A stretch of 23,572 bases of DNA from positions 1 through 23,572 of IMG/VR virus record IMGVR_UViG_3300032313_000104, one strand, 5' to 3'. The position numbers and the translations under genes were made by a program. The notes below the pieces were generated by a model. It did no database searches. It saw only the letters and a list, made by a program, of their open reading frames with translations, and was not told the origin of the DNA. Each line of letters starts with the position of its first letter. The first letter of the stretch is position 1. Shown piece by piece: positions 2,994 to 19,669 of the stretch. This stretch comes from a virus.

Positions 2994-3731
2994 ATGAAAA
3001 TACTTTTACTTGATATTGAATGTGCTCCAAACCTTGCAACTGTATGGGGTATTTGGCAACAGAACGTAGCATTGAATCAGTTATTAGAATCATCTTATAC
3101 ATTATGCTATGCAGCAAAGTGGTATGGTGAATCAAAGATTATGTTTGATTCAATATACAAAACAGATCGTAAGCATATGCTAAAAAGCATTCATGAGCTT
3201 ATGGAATCTGCTGACGTGATTGTCCACTATAATGGCCTACGTTTTGATATTCCAATGCTTAACAAAGAATTCCTAGAGGCTGGTATGAATCCACCAAGCC
3301 CAGTAAAACACATTGACTTATTAAGGGTAGTAAAAAGTAATTTTAGATTTGTTTCAAATAAATTAGATTATGTTTCTCAGCGATTAGGTATTGGAAAAAA
3401 GACTGACCATGAAGGCCATGAGCTATGGCTAAAGGTTATGAATAATGATCGTGCAGCATGGAAACGCATGGAAGAGTATAACAAGAATGATGTAGTACTT
3501 CTTGAATCACTCTATGATCGCCTCAAGGGTTGGATTAAACAACATCCAAACCATAATGCGTATTCTGCAAATACTGTATGTACAAATTGCGGATCAAGCA
3601 AATTACACAAACGTGGTGAAGTAAGATCAAGAACATCAATATTCCAACGCTTTCAATGTCAAGATTGTGGTGCTTGGTCAAGATCAAATAAATCACAAAA
3701 AATTGGTAAAGAATTTCTTGTAAACATTTAA
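2994..3731 (+). CDS. DEDDy 3'-5' exonuclease with C-terminal zinc ribbon (RNase H-like)
   Basis: A 245-residue protein. Exonuclease motif I is D7-I-E9 in LLLDIEC, motif II is HYNGLRFD with D85, and motif III is Y162-N-K-N-D166, giving the DEDDy set of an RNase_H_2/YprB-like fold. A zinc ribbon follows, with C196-x2-C199 and C222-x2-C225. The family degrades single-stranded or 3' ends of DNA or RNA; the zinc ribbon suggests nucleic-acid binding. It follows the endolysin gene by 28 bases, separated by a hairpin. The exact substrate cannot be read from sequence. DNA polymerase motifs are absent. Confidence 0.82.
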   Translation: MKILLLDIECAPNLATVWGIWQQNVALNQLLESSYTLCYAAKWYGESKIMFDSIYKTDRKHMLKSIHELMESADVIVHYNGLRFDIPMLNKEFLEAGMNPPSPVKHIDLLRVVKSNFRFVSNKLDYVSQRLGIGKKTDHEGHELWLKVMNNDRAAWKRMEEYNKNDVVLLESLYDRLKGWIKQHPNHNAYSANTVCTNCGSSKLHKRGEVRSRTSIFQRFQCQDCGAWSRSNKSQKIGKEFLVNI

Positions 3732-5726: not shown

Positions 5727-5907
5727 TGCGTTCCCCATATGGTGTAGGTTTAGGTAATTTGATGTATCCTTGTCTTTCAAGATTTTTAAGCCTATGAACA
5801 TTTGTCACACAATTTTGAATAATATTTTTCATAGTGCAATTAGGATTATCTTCAATATAATTTTTTATAAAATATGCCTGTCTTATGCTGTCTGCTCTTG
5901 TATACAT
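5701..5907 (-). CDS. Small winged-helix DNA-binding protein
   Basis: A 68-residue protein. The layout is a helix (YFIKNYIEDNP), a turn, a candidate recognition helix (MKNIIQNCVTNVHRLKNLERQGYI) and a basic tail, as in MarR- or GntR-like winged helices. AAGGA is 7 bases upstream of ATG 5907, which supports this start even though it overlaps the FkbM gene by 25 bases. It may regulate the phage or host; its target is unknown. Confidence 0.6.
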   Translation of the reverse strand: MYTRADSIRQAYFIKNYIEDNPNCTMKNIIQNCVTNVHRLKNLERQGYIKLPKPTPYGERNGLFRKTA

Positions 5908-6488
5908 AAATTAGTCCTTAAGTATTTTAATACACCATAATTATAACCACGCATTGTACACTCTAAAAGCGTATAGTCAAGTAGTAATTCATCTATGCGT
6001 CTGCGGTTATGTGCACTATGAAACTCTATCAAAAATATTGATGGAAAGTTTACTAGGTTTTCTAGTATTTCAATCTCTGCACCTTCAGTATCAATCTTCA
6101 TAATGTCACACTCTGGCAAATGTTTAGCTGACATTACCTTAACTATTTCACCTTCTTTAGCCTGCTCTTCACCACTATACAGACTAGCCTCACCACAGTT
6201 ATGTAGCCCATAATACATTTGACGTTCACCATCTTCTTTCCCTATAGCAAAGTTTCTAATGGCTATATCTGTGCCAGCTGTATTTTGTCTTAATAAACTA
6301 TAATTTTCTTTTATAGGTTCATAACAATCTATTTTTGGATTCTTAAAAAACTCATGTGCCCATACTGCAAAACCACCTACATTAGCACCAATGTCAATAA
6401 TGTATGGATTCTCTAATGCTCCAAGTACAGCATACTCACCTTGAAATATTTTACCTACATGACTAATCATGTTATTTGGTATTATCAT
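5883..6488 (-). CDS. FkbM-family SAM-dependent methyltransferase
   Basis: A 201-residue protein. The SAM-binding loop is DIGANVG at residues 32-38, with an acidic residue after strand 2 (DCYEP) and the FkbM mark MKIDTEGAE at 130-138, followed by FLIEFHS. The family O-methylates sugars and other small molecules. AGGTGGG lies just upstream of the ATG. The nearby glycosyltransferase suggests joint modification of a glycan, on the virion or host surface; this is inferred from position. Confidence 0.85.
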   Translation of the reverse strand: MIIPNNMISHVGKIFQGEYAVLGALENPYIIDIGANVGGFAVWAHEFFKNPKIDCYEPIKENYSLLRQNTAGTDIAIRNFAIGKEDGERQMYYGLHNCGEASLYSGEEQAKEGEIVKVMSAKHLPECDIMKIDTEGAEIEILENLVNFPSIFLIEFHSAHNRRRIDELLLDYTLLECTMRGYNYGVLKYLRTNLCIQEQTA

Positions 6489-7364: not shown

Positions 7365-7584
7365 GATGTGCCTCCACAAGTTTTTTTGAGTCGTACTTTT
7401 TAACATTAGTTACTTTAATAATATTTTTTGTATCTGGGATTAATGGAGTGATAGTCCAGTTATGTAATTTATTTTTTATATCTTGAGAAATTTCTAATGA
7501 CGTTGGCTCTGAAGTCATAAGTCCTGACCATACAAGTTTACCTGTACTGTCAAATTCTTCCACTAAAAATGCAATAGGCTTCAT
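7354..7584 (-). CDS. Small conserved hypothetical protein
   Basis: A 76-residue protein beginning MKPIAFLVEEFD. ATG 7584 overlaps the SleB-type stop by one base (TGATG); a longer start at 7635 would overlap that gene by 52 bases. It has beta-type strands (KLVWSGLMT; WTITPLIPD) and a lysine-rich end. No function recognised. Its 3' end overlaps the glycosyltransferase start and carries that gene's SD. Confidence 0.6.
   Translation of the reverse strand: MKPIAFLVEEFDSTGKLVWSGLMTSEPTSLEISQDIKNKLHNWTITPLIPDTKNIIKVTNVKKYDSKKLVEAHLGN
7371..7375 (-). promoter_or_regulatory. Strong SD that decides the TTG start of the glycosyltransferase
   Basis: GGAGG on the minus strand is 6 bases upstream of TTG at 7364. 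It lies inside the end of the upstream gene. The upstream in-frame ATG at 7406 has no such site. Confidence 0.65.
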
Positions 7585-7964
7585 CAATAAAAAACCATCC
7601 GTTTTATATGTATTATCTTTTTGCGTCCAAACCATTCTTTTTTTGGTGGTATAGAGTCATCATGAAAATACAGACTGTTAGCAACGGGATTAGCATACTT
7701 GTTAAACACTATGGTGTCAAGCACTAATAATTTAGTTTTGAGATATGCCTTCTCATTCACAGGCTCATGCTTTTCATCTTGCACAGCAAACTGGCCATTT
7801 GCGTACACAACGCTGCACACGCTATGACCCCACCTACCAGACTTAACTCTGTTTCTGATTACGTTAATAACACCTAGCTTTTCTTCAAGCGTCCTAGTGT
7901 TGACTTCGTGGTAAACAGCGGTACTGTAGCAGGCTATATCAAGCTCTAAATTATGAATGTCCAT
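7584..7964 (-). CDS. SleB-type cell wall hydrolase
   Basis: A 126-residue protein. YHE with Glu20, then GVINVIRNRVKSGRW, VCSVVYANGQF and SLYFHDDS, is the Hydrolase_2/SleB pattern, in which the Glu is catalytic in a lytic-transglycosylase-like fold. It cleaves peptidoglycan. There is no clear signal peptide, though it could leave through the holin. It is the second muralytic enzyme here besides the GH24 endolysin but lies in the early leftward operon. AGGA is 9 bases upstream of the ATG. Confidence 0.8.
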   Translation of the reverse strand: MDIHNLELDIACYSTAVYHEVNTRTLEEKLGVINVIRNRVKSGRWGHSVCSVVYANGQFAVQDEKHEPVNEKAYLKTKLLVLDTIVFNKYANPVANSLYFHDDSIPPKKEWFGRKKIIHIKRMVFY

Positions 7965-8202
7965 TATTACGCTTTCCTATAATGTCATGAATATAGTGTT
8001 CATCATATCCAGATAATATTAGGCATATGTCTTTTACAACGTTATCGTGTTCATTAAGCCACCTAATAGCAGATTCACGTTCAGTACCATAACCATCTAT
8101 GGCATCTTTCATGGCCTGCAATAGTATTGCATGGAATAGTCTAGCGTGTGGTGTAGTTGCTAATTCTGCCCTTATAGACTCTTTAAACTCAAACTTAAAC
8201 AT
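7951..8202 (-). CDS. Small conserved phage protein
   Basis: An 83-residue helical, acidic protein (LFHAILLQAMKDAIDG; ESAIRWLNEHD; VVKDICLILSGYD). The pattern, with a central WL and a C-terminal C-x2-LxG, resembles small phage proteins of unknown function that often sit near replication genes. AGAGG lies just before ATG 8202, and it overlaps the SleB gene by 14 bases. It borders the pqqA gap. Confidence 0.65.
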   Translation of the reverse strand: MFKFEFKESIRAELATTPHARLFHAILLQAMKDAIDGYGTERESAIRWLNEHDNVVKDICLILSGYDEHYIHDIIGKRNNGHS

Positions 8203-8249: not shown

Positions 8250-8255
8250 TATAAT
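8250..8255 (+). promoter_or_regulatory. -10 element likely serving pqqA
   Basis: A perfect TATAAT preceded by TG lies 43 bases upstream of the pqqA start. I see no good -35 at the usual distance, so this is a partial promoter call. Confidence 0.4.
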
Positions 8256-8298
8256 CACACTTAATGGCATAAGCCAGAAACCTTTAAGGATACTAACC

Positions 8299-8370
8299 AT
8301 GTGGACAACTCCAGTAGCTACTGAAATGCGTTTCGGTTTTGAAGTAACTATGTACGTTATGAACAAGTAA
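8299..8370 (+). CDS. pqqA: PqqA, precursor peptide of PQQ cofactor
   Basis: A 23-residue peptide starting MWTTPVATEM and carrying E15-V-T-M-Y19. Length, the N-terminal MW, the R11-x-G13-x-E15 core and the E15/Y19 positions match bacterial PqqA (for example Klebsiella, E15 and Y19). PqqE joins these two side chains and the rest of the peptide is removed to build PQQ. AAGGA lies 8 bases upstream of ATG. It is alone in a 275-base gap, on the opposite strand to its neighbours, so it is probably its own unit. No other pqq gene is seen, so the phage would depend on host PqqB-E. It likely raises PQQ supply for methanol or other quinoprotein dehydrogenases during infection; this is inference. Confidence 0.88.
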   Translation: MWTTPVATEMRFGFEVTMYVMNK

Positions 8371-8468: not shown

Positions 8469-8495
8469 GGGGATGTCCTAAAAAGGAACATCCTC
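8469..8495 (+). terminator. Possible terminator for pqqA transcript
   Basis: GGGGATGTCC pairs with GGAACATCCTC (one bulged A, one G-T pair) over a 6-base loop and is followed by ATTGTTTTCTT on the + strand. It overlaps the stop of the facing SSB-like gene, so coding constraint could explain part of it. Confidence 0.35.
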
Positions 8496-8699
8496 ATTGT
8501 TTTCTTCGGTTTTCTTCACTTCTTTTAATTGCACTTGTCCAGAAATAAATTCACCTTTTGCACTTTGTCTGATCCATCCAGACATTCTAAACTCAATACC
8601 ATCCACGTTTAAATTTCCACTCCAGTCTGGTCTTTTAGGGTTTTGACCCTTATCGTTTACAAACAATGTAAACGTATTTGTATTATCATATTCTGCCAT
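8478..8699 (-). CDS. Small single-strand DNA-binding-like protein
   Basis: A 73-residue protein. It is strand-rich (FTLFVND; DWSGNLNVDGIEFRMSGWI; FISGQVQLKEV) and consistent with an OB-like fold. The C-terminus is acidic and ends EDVPF, close to the DDIPF tip that bacterial SSB uses to bind partner proteins. Position after the annealing protein and exonuclease supports an SSB role in recombination. AAGGAG is 6-7 bases upstream of the ATG. It lacks the length of a canonical SSB. Confidence 0.65.
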   Translation of the reverse strand: MAEYDNTNTFTLFVNDKGQNPKRPDWSGNLNVDGIEFRMSGWIRQSAKGEFISGQVQLKEVKKTEENNEDVPF

Positions 8700-8702
8700 A
8701 CA

Positions 8703-9251
8703 TTACTCCTTAATAAAAATTGGCTTACGTTTCCACCTTACTGGTTCAACATCATCTTCAAGAGATTTTAAAAACTCTAATGCTAACGGTGTGTACCATT
8801 CAATGAAATCTTTGTTACGTTCTACTTTAGTTACTTGTGTTGCATCTGGTGTCCAAACATAAAACCATGCGTATGGTTGGTCACATACTTCAAGCTGTAA
8901 CTGAACTTGAAAATAATATCGTTCTGGAATCTCTGGGTACACCACTTGAGTGAAGGGACACTTCAGCTCAACTGGAATTGAATCAATGAATGCATCTGGG
9001 CTGGCAGCAAATGGCAACTCTGGATGAAGTATTAATTTATTACCAGACTCACAGATAACATCCATATCCTTTTCAAACTGACTCAATGCTACTGGCTCGT
9101 AAAGTTGACCCCATTCTGTGGCCTCATTACCTTCAAATGGAGGGCTACGAAACGTCATGTCCCTCCAAAGTTTTTGCCTCTCATAAACCGCTGCCCATGC
9201 ATTACTAGCGGTAATACGATTGTGTCTAGCATTGTTTTTTAAATGACTCAT
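8703..9251 (-). CDS. YqaJ-type (lambda exonuclease-like) recombination nuclease
   Basis: A 182-residue protein. RITAS at 12-16, WGQLYEP with Glu52, SPDA with D86, then E95-L-K97 and the QxQxQ helix (YYFQVQLQLEV) give the PD-(D/E)XK active site of YqaJ exonucleases. These resect double-stranded DNA 5' to 3' and hand single strands to an annealing protein. Its start overlaps the annealing-protein stop by 4 bases (ATGA), so the two are coupled. Confidence 0.88.
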   Translation of the reverse strand: MSHLKNNARHNRITASNAWAAVYERQKLWRDMTFRSPPFEGNEATEWGQLYEPVALSQFEKDMDVICESGNKLILHPELPFAASPDAFIDSIPVELKCPFTQVVYPEIPERYYFQVQLQLEVCDQPYAWFYVWTPDATQVTKVERNKDFIEWYTPLALEFLKSLEDDVEPVRWKRKPIFIKE

Positions 9252-17617: not shown

Positions 17618-19669
17618 ATGATTGATATTAACAAATTAAAAAGCATTATTGAATCTGAGATAGATGACTCATTAGGTTATCTTGAAACAGATACTACAGA
17701 TGAACGTCAAGAAGCTCTAAAATATTACTTGCGTGAGCCCTACGGAAATGAGGTGGAGGGCAAATCTTCAATTGTTACAGGTGAAGTTGCAGAAGCGGTT
17801 GACGGTGCATTACCACAACTCATTCGTGTATTTACTTCTAGCGATAACGTAGTAGAGTTTGCACCAGCTAAAGATGGTGACGAACAAAATGCTGAACAGG
17901 CCACACAATTAGTTAATCATGTATTCTATAAAGATAACGATGGCTTCTTAATTTTACACAATTGGTTTAAAGATGCATTACTTCAAAAGACTGGTGTAGT
18001 TAAAGCATACTGGAATGATGATAAAGATTTAACAAAAGAAAAGTATGAAGGCCTAACAGATGATGAGCTAATGATGCTCATGCAAGATCCAGAGGTTGAA
18101 CTTGTATCACAAGAAATTATTGAAGAGTCAACAGTAGATGAGATGACTGGCCTATCAACATTCAGCAAGTCTAATAACGTTACATTAAGACGCACAAAGA
18201 ATAACGGTAAGATCGTTGTAGAAAACGTACCACCAGAAGAGTTCTTAATATCTAAACGTGCTAAGACAATTCAAGACTCACCATTCGTAGCTCATCGTAG
18301 AATGATTACTCGTTCTGAATTAGTGGCTATGGGTTTTGACAAAGATACAGTTAATTCGCTAGAGTCTGGTGACACACTAGAATTCAGTCCAGACAGAATT
18401 GCACGTTACTCTCGTGGTGAACAACCTAACTCAATGGGCTCACAAGATGAGTCAATGGAAGTTGTAGAAGTATACGAATGCTACATTAAAGTTGATTACA
18501 ATGATGATGGCATTGCTGAATTAAGAAGAGTGGTATATGCATCTAATGAGATTCTTTCAGATGAAGAGTGTGACTATGTTCCATTCCATTCAATTTGCCC
18601 AATACCAATTCCACATAAATTCTATGGCCAATCACTAGCGGATCGTACTTTAGACATTCAACTTATTAAGTCTACAGTTACTCGCCAAATGTTAGATAAC
18701 TTATACCTAACAAACAATTCAAGAATTGCAGCAGTAGAAGGCCAAGTGAACTTAGATGATTTATTAACGTCTACAGCAGGTGGTGTAGTTCGTGTTAAGA
18801 ATGCAGGTGCAATCGTACCATTAACAGTACAGTCTAGTGCATCACAATCATTCCCAATGCTAGAGTATTTAGACGGTGTTCAAGCTAAACGTACTGGTGT
18901 TAGCGATGCTCAACAAGGTTTAAGTGCGGATGTATTACAAAACGTTACAGCAACAGCGGTTGCTACAATGTCTAATGCATCATATGGTAAGTTAGAACTG
19001 ATTGCTCGTATCTTTGCAGAAACAGGTGTTAAATCACTATTTAAAGGTATCCTACAATTACTATGCAAGTACCAAGATGTTACTAGAACACTACGCATTA
19101 ATGGTAGATTTGTGCCATTTAATCCTCGTGAATGGGATACAGAATACAACGTTACAATCAATGTAGGTTTAGGTACTGGCTCACGTCAAGAACAACTTGC
19201 AACTATGCAAATGATCTTAGGTAAGCAAGAACAAATCTTACAAGCATATGGTGTAAGCAATCCACTTATCTCACTAAAACAATATAGAGATACATTGGCT
19301 AAGTTTGTACACATGGCTGGATTCAAAGATGCTACAGCATTCATGAATGAAATTACTCCAGAGATTGAACAACAAGTTATGCAAGATGCATCACAAGAAA
19401 AAGCAGATCCAAATACTAGGGCAGCTGAAATCTTGGCTCAAGTTGAACGTGAGAAAGCACAACTTAAACAACAAACAGAGATGGCTAAACTTGAATTAGA
19501 GAAACAGCAAATGGAATTAGATAATGCTCGTAAGCAATTAGAATTACAGATGCAAGCATTTAAGATTCAAGCTGACGCTTCTAACCAATCAGAGATGACT
19601 CGTAACTCACAAACTAAAACAGTTATAGATACATTGGAAAAGTTTAACAAAGCTCAAACAGGACAGTAA
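17618..19669 (+). CDS. Portal protein, P22-like
   Basis: A 683-residue protein starting one base after the terminase stop. The N-terminal half (GNEVEGKSSIVTGEVAEAVD; GVVKAYW) and the central NVPPEEFLISKRAK, DRTLDIQLIKSTVTRQMLDN and TGVSDAQQGLSADVL are typical of P22-type portals. The last ~100 residues are a Gln/Glu/Lys-rich helix, as in the P22 barrel. Twelve copies form the DNA entry ring. Confidence 0.9.
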   Translation: MIDINKLKSIIESEIDDSLGYLETDTTDERQEALKYYLREPYGNEVEGKSSIVTGEVAEAVDGALPQLIRVFTSSDNVVEFAPAKDGDEQNAEQATQLVNHVFYKDNDGFLILHNWFKDALLQKTGVVKAYWNDDKDLTKEKYEGLTDDELMMLMQDPEVELVSQEIIEESTVDEMTGLSTFSKSNNVTLRRTKNNGKIVVENVPPEEFLISKRAKTIQDSPFVAHRRMITRSELVAMGFDKDTVNSLESGDTLEFSPDRIARYSRGEQPNSMGSQDESMEVVEVYECYIKVDYNDDGIAELRRVVYASNEILSDEECDYVPFHSICPIPIPHKFYGQSLADRTLDIQLIKSTVTRQMLDNLYLTNNSRIAAVEGQVNLDDLLTSTAGGVVRVKNAGAIVPLTVQSSASQSFPMLEYLDGVQAKRTGVSDAQQGLSADVLQNVTATAVATMSNASYGKLELIARIFAETGVKSLFKGILQLLCKYQDVTRTLRINGRFVPFNPREWDTEYNVTINVGLGTGSRQEQLATMQMILGKQEQILQAYGVSNPLISLKQYRDTLAKFVHMAGFKDATAFMNEITPEIEQQVMQDASQEKADPNTRAAEILAQVEREKAQLKQQTEMAKLELEKQQMELDNARKQLELQMQAFKIQADASNQSEMTRNSQTKTVIDTLEKFNKAQTGQ

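Follow-up and report, generated by a model that had tools for sequence, protein, structure and literature searches.

The window, a 23,572-nt viral record that was analyzed over its whole length, carries at positions 8299 to 8370 (+) a frame that, judged from its sequence, encodes a genuine PqqA substrate peptide, for which cross-linking by PqqE/PqqD and processing to PQQ are predicted. The phage probably gives this consumed precursor peptide to the PqqB-E enzymes of its host, which would sustain PQQ and methanol dehydrogenase during infection. A sequence-only reading had described a phage-encoded PqqA at this site and interpreted it as an auxiliary metabolic gene; the observation was confirmed, and the comparisons reported here support the interpretation. 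The pqqA frame consists of 23 codons followed by TAA, and its translation, MWTTPVATEMRFGFEVTMYVMNK, agrees exactly with the 23-residue peptide that had been read. Both E15 and Y19 are present in the E-x-x-x-Y spacing; these two are the pair that PqqE links in known PqqA and that provide the PQQ skeleton. In the profile check, the peptide exceeded both curated cut-offs, with 35.9 bits against Pfam PqqA PF08042 (cut-off, 21.1) and 34.7 bits against the NCBIfam equivalog TIGR02107 (cut-off, 20). A search of the 23,572-nt record returned 8299 to 8370 as its sole PqqA (E value of 1.8e-9), and none of the 14 control genomes gave a match.

The record is a 23.6-kb viral contig with an SU10-type portal (17618 to 19669, +; PF23899), an SU10-type capsid, and a terminase, and it is a small podovirus on the basis of the portal and capsid. 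The portal protein was used to place the phage and to gather relatives blind to pqqA. Among named relatives, the portals most similar to that of the window were those of MW202481 (Manatee Spring; 73% identity) and of Venkman, a methylophage of OM43 (62%). In shared gene content, the closest record was G013 of IMG/VR (37.3 kb), with 35 of 40 open reading frames (ORFs) in common at a mean of 77%. In a tblastn search of 127 viral records (2.08 Mb), pqqB, pqqC, pqqD, and pqqE were found in none, and thus no phage-borne full PQQ operon was seen; the same search found these genes in 19 to 29 of 120 host loci. Because portal, capsid, and terminase lie on the same record, pqqA is also present in complete isolate genomes, and the 127 viral records contain no pqqB-E, the gene sits in a phage genome and is not mistaken host DNA. 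The result for pqqB-E also agrees with the earlier proposal that the phage peptide needs the host enzymes.

The genes on either side of pqqA are encoded on the opposite strand, so that pqqA stands alone in its orientation, as had been described. On one side are a single-strand DNA-binding protein gene (8478 to 8699, −; PHROG 18154, with synteny to MW202481) and a YqaJ/RecE-like recombination exonuclease gene (8703 to 9251, −; PF09588, PHROG 434). On the other side are genes for a small protein of unknown function (7951 to 8202, −; no PHROG match) and an endolysin-like protein (7584 to 7964, −; PHROG 938); in MW202481, a gene close to pqqA bears the annotation lytic transglycosylase. The leftward gene block additionally includes an FkbM-type methyltransferase gene (5883 to 6488, −; PF05050), possibly involved in glycan modification. 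The −10 box and Shine-Dalgarno (SD) site that had been attributed to pqqA were both found: an exact TATAAT hexamer (8250 to 8255, +) lies 43 nt upstream of the ATG, and AAGGA (8286 to 8290, +) lies 8 nt before it. No recognizable −35 was seen upstream of the window pqqA, and for want of a good −35 a simple sigma-70 promoter scan omits the site. G013, the closest relative, retains both the −10 and the leader. The predicted folding of the RNA across leader and gene was unremarkable (z of −0.39).

The distribution of pqqA in annotated phages was examined by tblastn of PqqA against 50,697 phage records. Genuine matches were obtained in P19250A, MEP301, MEP401, MEP402, Venkman, four Melnitz isolates, and MW202481, corresponding to nine cultured methylophages of five lineages and one spring virus. 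Two matches labeled "Acinetobacter phage MD-2021a" (CAKLQF020000010.1 and CAKLQH020000055.1) were dropped, as they appear to be bacterial contigs and hold a full pqqABCDE operon. An Acinetobacter PqqA query retrieved the same phage set from the 50,697 records and no further phages, indicating that phages of other PQQ-making hosts in this collection are without pqqA at that sensitivity. In none of the 10 phage records was the gene annotated as PqqA; the site carried either nothing or a hypothetical protein, which in MW202481 and Melnitz-1 was on the opposite strand, and PHROGs contained no family matching PqqA. The expectation that the gene is short enough to be missed was thus borne out, and annotation pipelines with minimum gene lengths miss auxiliary genes of 20 to 30 codons.

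The numbers of ORFs shared with the window were 20 for MW202481, 12 for Venkman, 4 for P19250A, 1 for MEP401, and zero for MEP301 and Melnitz. The phages were clustered by a proportion threshold of shared genes; single-linkage merged all of them into one component. Judged by shared genes, the cultured pqqA phages are mutually unrelated or distant. MEP301 and Venkman have few other genes in common, and both carry the leader motif CTTGATTAAC. This common motif, together with the varied genomic positions of pqqA, suggests repeated acquisition or passage between phages, and the sequence data suggest that promoter, leader, and pqqA may travel together as a small cassette. The motif was observed directly before the pqqA SD at loci L247 (MEP301), L248 (Venkman), L017, L054, L060, L063, L069, and L337, which come from phages that otherwise share few genes.

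In addition to the annotated phages, at least 147 IMG/VR contigs carried pqqA in scans with two degenerate DNA patterns. The first pattern gave at least 120 loci, each with a clean 23-codon frame; the second, in which residues 15 and 19 were left free, gave at least 120 loci, of which 27 were new, all of 23 residues. No frameshift was found in related phages, since every copy found was exactly 23 residues long. Among the 127 viral records examined, 94 fell in clusters with a cultured or complete reference phage, and each of the 36 phage records checked had exactly one pqqA copy. At the 95 loci with both flanks visible, pqqA was alone on the strand opposite both neighbors in 43 and codirectional with both in 28. 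By these pattern searches, phage pqqA is of a far wider kind than the published cases that we found. A PqqA of a different type (MWTKPSAIDMRFGFEVTMYVARS; MWTKPTYE.IRLGFEVTMYFKN.) was seen on viral contigs L120 (about 3475 to 3546, +), L009, L018, L023, and L028. L120 has a terminase and a portal, L018 is a putative phage, and these contigs are possibly phages of other methylotrophs or methanotrophs.

Prevalence was then compared by lineage. When relatives of the window were gathered by their portal, blind to pqqA, the gene was present in all 14 records of 22 kb or more, and the five relatives without it were fragments of 14 to 21 kb. Among long relatives of the MEP401 portal, only 2 of 12 carried it, and one relative without it was 42.8 kb long with a portal 93% identical. 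The gene therefore looks fixed in the window lineage and optional elsewhere, and it is dispensable in some lineages. The idea that pqqA is universal across methylophages was rejected on the MEP401-type count and on its absence from all six relatives, possibly methylophages, that were gathered by the P19250A tail gene.

Next, the host was assigned from sequence, the window being a 23.6-kb fragment with no isolated host. The pattern MWxxP...E(M/L/V)R(F/Y)GFEVTMY was scanned against one genome per species of 84,980 bacterial and archaeal species. The matches listed were almost only from Methylophilaceae (Methylotenera, Methylophilus, Methylobacillus, Methylovorus, Methylopumilus, and OM43); the few others listed were labeled only Betaproteobacteria, Gammaproteobacteria, Nitrosomonadales, Rhodocyclaceae, Burkholderiales, or less. 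This near confinement of the signature, among the matches listed, points to the phage host, and the window virus most likely infects methanol-eating bacteria of the Methylophilaceae. The earlier guess of a methylotroph host is thereby strengthened, as it is by the genuine phage matches with a named host, all of which were methylophages. Among the host matches listed, the commonest peptide, MWTTPAATEMRFGFEVTMYVMNK, differed from the window peptide by one residue, and many identical peptides were shared by hosts and phages. The 34 host genomes in which copies were counted, picked for having a match, held 1 to 12 pqqA copies each, including three in OM43 LSUCC0665 (1.3 Mb) and twelve in Methylotenera mobilis 13. 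The copies, up to 12 per Methylophilaceae genome, were scattered, and many were unlinked to pqqBCDE (M. mobilis 13, G003, G066, and others). A PQQ producer grown on methanol is reported to have several pqqA copies (PMC9851590), as is Methylovorus in a work cited there (its reference 20).

In the role that we consider probable, host PqqD would present phage PqqA to host PqqE, PqqE would join E15 to Y19, and host proteases, PqqB, and PqqC would complete PQQ. One PqqA is consumed per PQQ, and PqqB-E are reusable catalysts already in the cell; thus, the phage need bring only the peptide. A gene of 72 bp that brings its own promoter and ribosome site could keep PQQ production going after host gene expression falls, so that the PQQ-dependent methanol dehydrogenase (XoxF/MxaF) of the Methylophilaceae host would stay loaded and the energy supply would run through infection. 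We infer transcription of pqqA and its timing, processing and cross-linking of the peptide, higher PQQ, and a benefit to the phage. Sustaining the cofactor during infection is plausible, since xoxF transcripts outnumbered all others in an OM43 isolate (PMC5120137) and the OM43 phages MEP401/402 have a latent period of about 17 to 20 h (PMC10580990). PqqA added to a Gluconobacter extract gave PQQ, as cited in PMC9851590. Overexpression of pqqAB in Acetobacter raised PQQ by only 29% versus eightfold for the full operon (PMC7936290), indicating that PqqA need not be limiting in every host. A point against the supply of precursor by the phage is that the hosts already have several pqqA copies. The OM43 medium in which Melnitz was grown has PQQ at 1 nM (PMC9004378), an amount that could hide an effect of phage pqqA in culture.

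PQQ made from the phage peptide could have a use other than methanol dehydrogenase, serving another quinoprotein or acting as an antioxidant during infection. Methylophilaceae genomes encode several PQQ-type dehydrogenases, and redox-protective effects of PQQ are found in the literature; however, XoxF, the dominant transcript in the OM43 isolate (PMC5120137), fits host energy metabolism best, and in the 50,697-record collection pqqA was seen in no phage whose host is another PQQ user. We regard such another use as unlikely.

A decoy or brake, in which the phage peptide occupies PqqD/PqqE unconverted or otherwise blocks the pathway and shifts metabolism away from methanol oxidation, appears quite improbable. 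PqqA is known to bind PqqD/PqqE, and phages often inhibit host pathways. A decoy would nevertheless be expected to lose the cross-link residues, and among the matches listed from the scan in which both positions were free, E15 was kept in 120 of 120 copies and Y19 likewise in 120 of 120. The phage peptides are also identical or nearly identical to host peptides, and one virus record supplies methanol dehydrogenase instead of working against it. This 72-kb record, G018 (IMGVR_UViG_3300025120_009955), has a methanol dehydrogenase family gene at 34049 to 35731 (TIGR03075, 628-residue frame), and its pqqA at 41887 to 41943 is about 6 kb away. Among the 51 viral records tested, only G018 showed this pairing, which resembles that of the Lake Baikal population VP_266.

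The gene could also be a neutral passenger that came from host DNA by recombination and does nothing for the phage, and the scattered host copies would be an easy source; many MEP401-type relatives without the gene are likewise in keeping with such carriage. The measured selection and retention largely refute this explanation, and its probability is very low. Codons fixed by the search pattern were set aside; over the remaining 16, dS was 1.27 and dN was 0.17 (dN/dS of about 0.13), and R11, G13, and F14 were invariant though their codons vary. Phage pqqA is under purifying selection and is maintained, and all frames found were intact 23-mers. Of 123 phage pqqA leaders, 117 had the SD core, versus about 5 expected from shuffles. 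Of 136 distinct phage leaders, 46 had TATAAT a short way upstream of the gene, versus 1 of 127 host leaders; base composition may explain part of this contrast, although shuffled phage leaders gave only about 16 of 123. Retention in all 14 long relatives, and presence in five cultured lineages with little or nothing else in common in their gene content, also argue against carriage without function. Finally, a chance or misread short frame without a coding role has practically no probability left: the frame spans only 23 codons and no sigma-70 site is called here by the simple promoter scan, but the two curated profiles far above cut-off, the SD site, the 14 unmatched control genomes, and the conservation of more than 100 homologues with varied synonymous codons under purifying selection have already refuted chance as the origin of frame 8299 to 8370.

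Methylophilaceae (OM43 and LD28/Methylopumilus) are abundant methanol oxidizers in lakes and on coasts, and if the PQQ precursor is regularly replenished by their phages, viral infection bears directly on methanol turnover. On balance, we lean toward pqqA being a recurrent methylophage hallmark in at least five unrelated lineages, one of the smallest auxiliary metabolic genes known and one that standard annotation overlooks. With it, the virus would add nothing but the consumed precursor to a host pathway that turns a peptide into a cofactor, and infection may thereby keep methanol oxidation going in lakes and coastal seas. The cultured virus-host pairs (Venkman, Melnitz, and the MEP phages) make the idea of PQQ supply testable now. 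In the literature covered, from which subscription papers were mostly outside the scope, there was no report of the breadth of phage pqqA, its conserved cross-link residues, or its systematic nonannotation, and phage pqqA goes unmentioned in the open-access descriptions of MEP301, MEP401/402, and Melnitz. Breadth, constraint, and systematic nonannotation thus appear unreported. A 2026 reservoir study listed virus-encoded pqqA, pqqE, and pqqD among phosphorus-cycling genes (PMC13188868).

The nearest published case is the Lake Baikal virus population VP_266, a methylotroph phage with pqqA and methanol dehydrogenase for which the same function was proposed in 2020 (PMC7678222). In that study (Microbiome 2020), PqqA of VP_266 and VP_139 was put forward as an auxiliary metabolic gene of Methylophilaceae phages, as is done here; however, those viruses are T4-like with methanol dehydrogenase, whereas the window, from a small podovirus, lacks that enzyme and belongs to a lineage in which pqqA appears to be fixed. 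Venkman, MEP301, MEP401/402, Melnitz, and P19250A each have one intact pqqA with 77 to 96% peptide identity, and in Venkman and MEP301 the gene is also alone on the strand opposite its neighbors. In contrast to this likeness, the cultured methylophages share only 0 to 12 ORFs with the window and carry pqqA at different places. The PqqA of Methylophilaceae (PF08042, TIGR02107) resembles the window peptide in its length of 23, the pattern MWT.P..TEMRFGFEVTMYVMNK, and E15/Y19. Unlike the host gene, the window copy is in a phage genome without pqqB-E, alone opposite recombination and lysis genes, and host copies seldom have a close upstream TATAAT. The photosynthesis genes of the psbA type in cyanophages are a generally known parallel, in which a turned-over component of host energy metabolism is resupplied by the phage. 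Unlike psbA, phage pqqA would supply a consumed cofactor precursor, not the protein that uses the cofactor.
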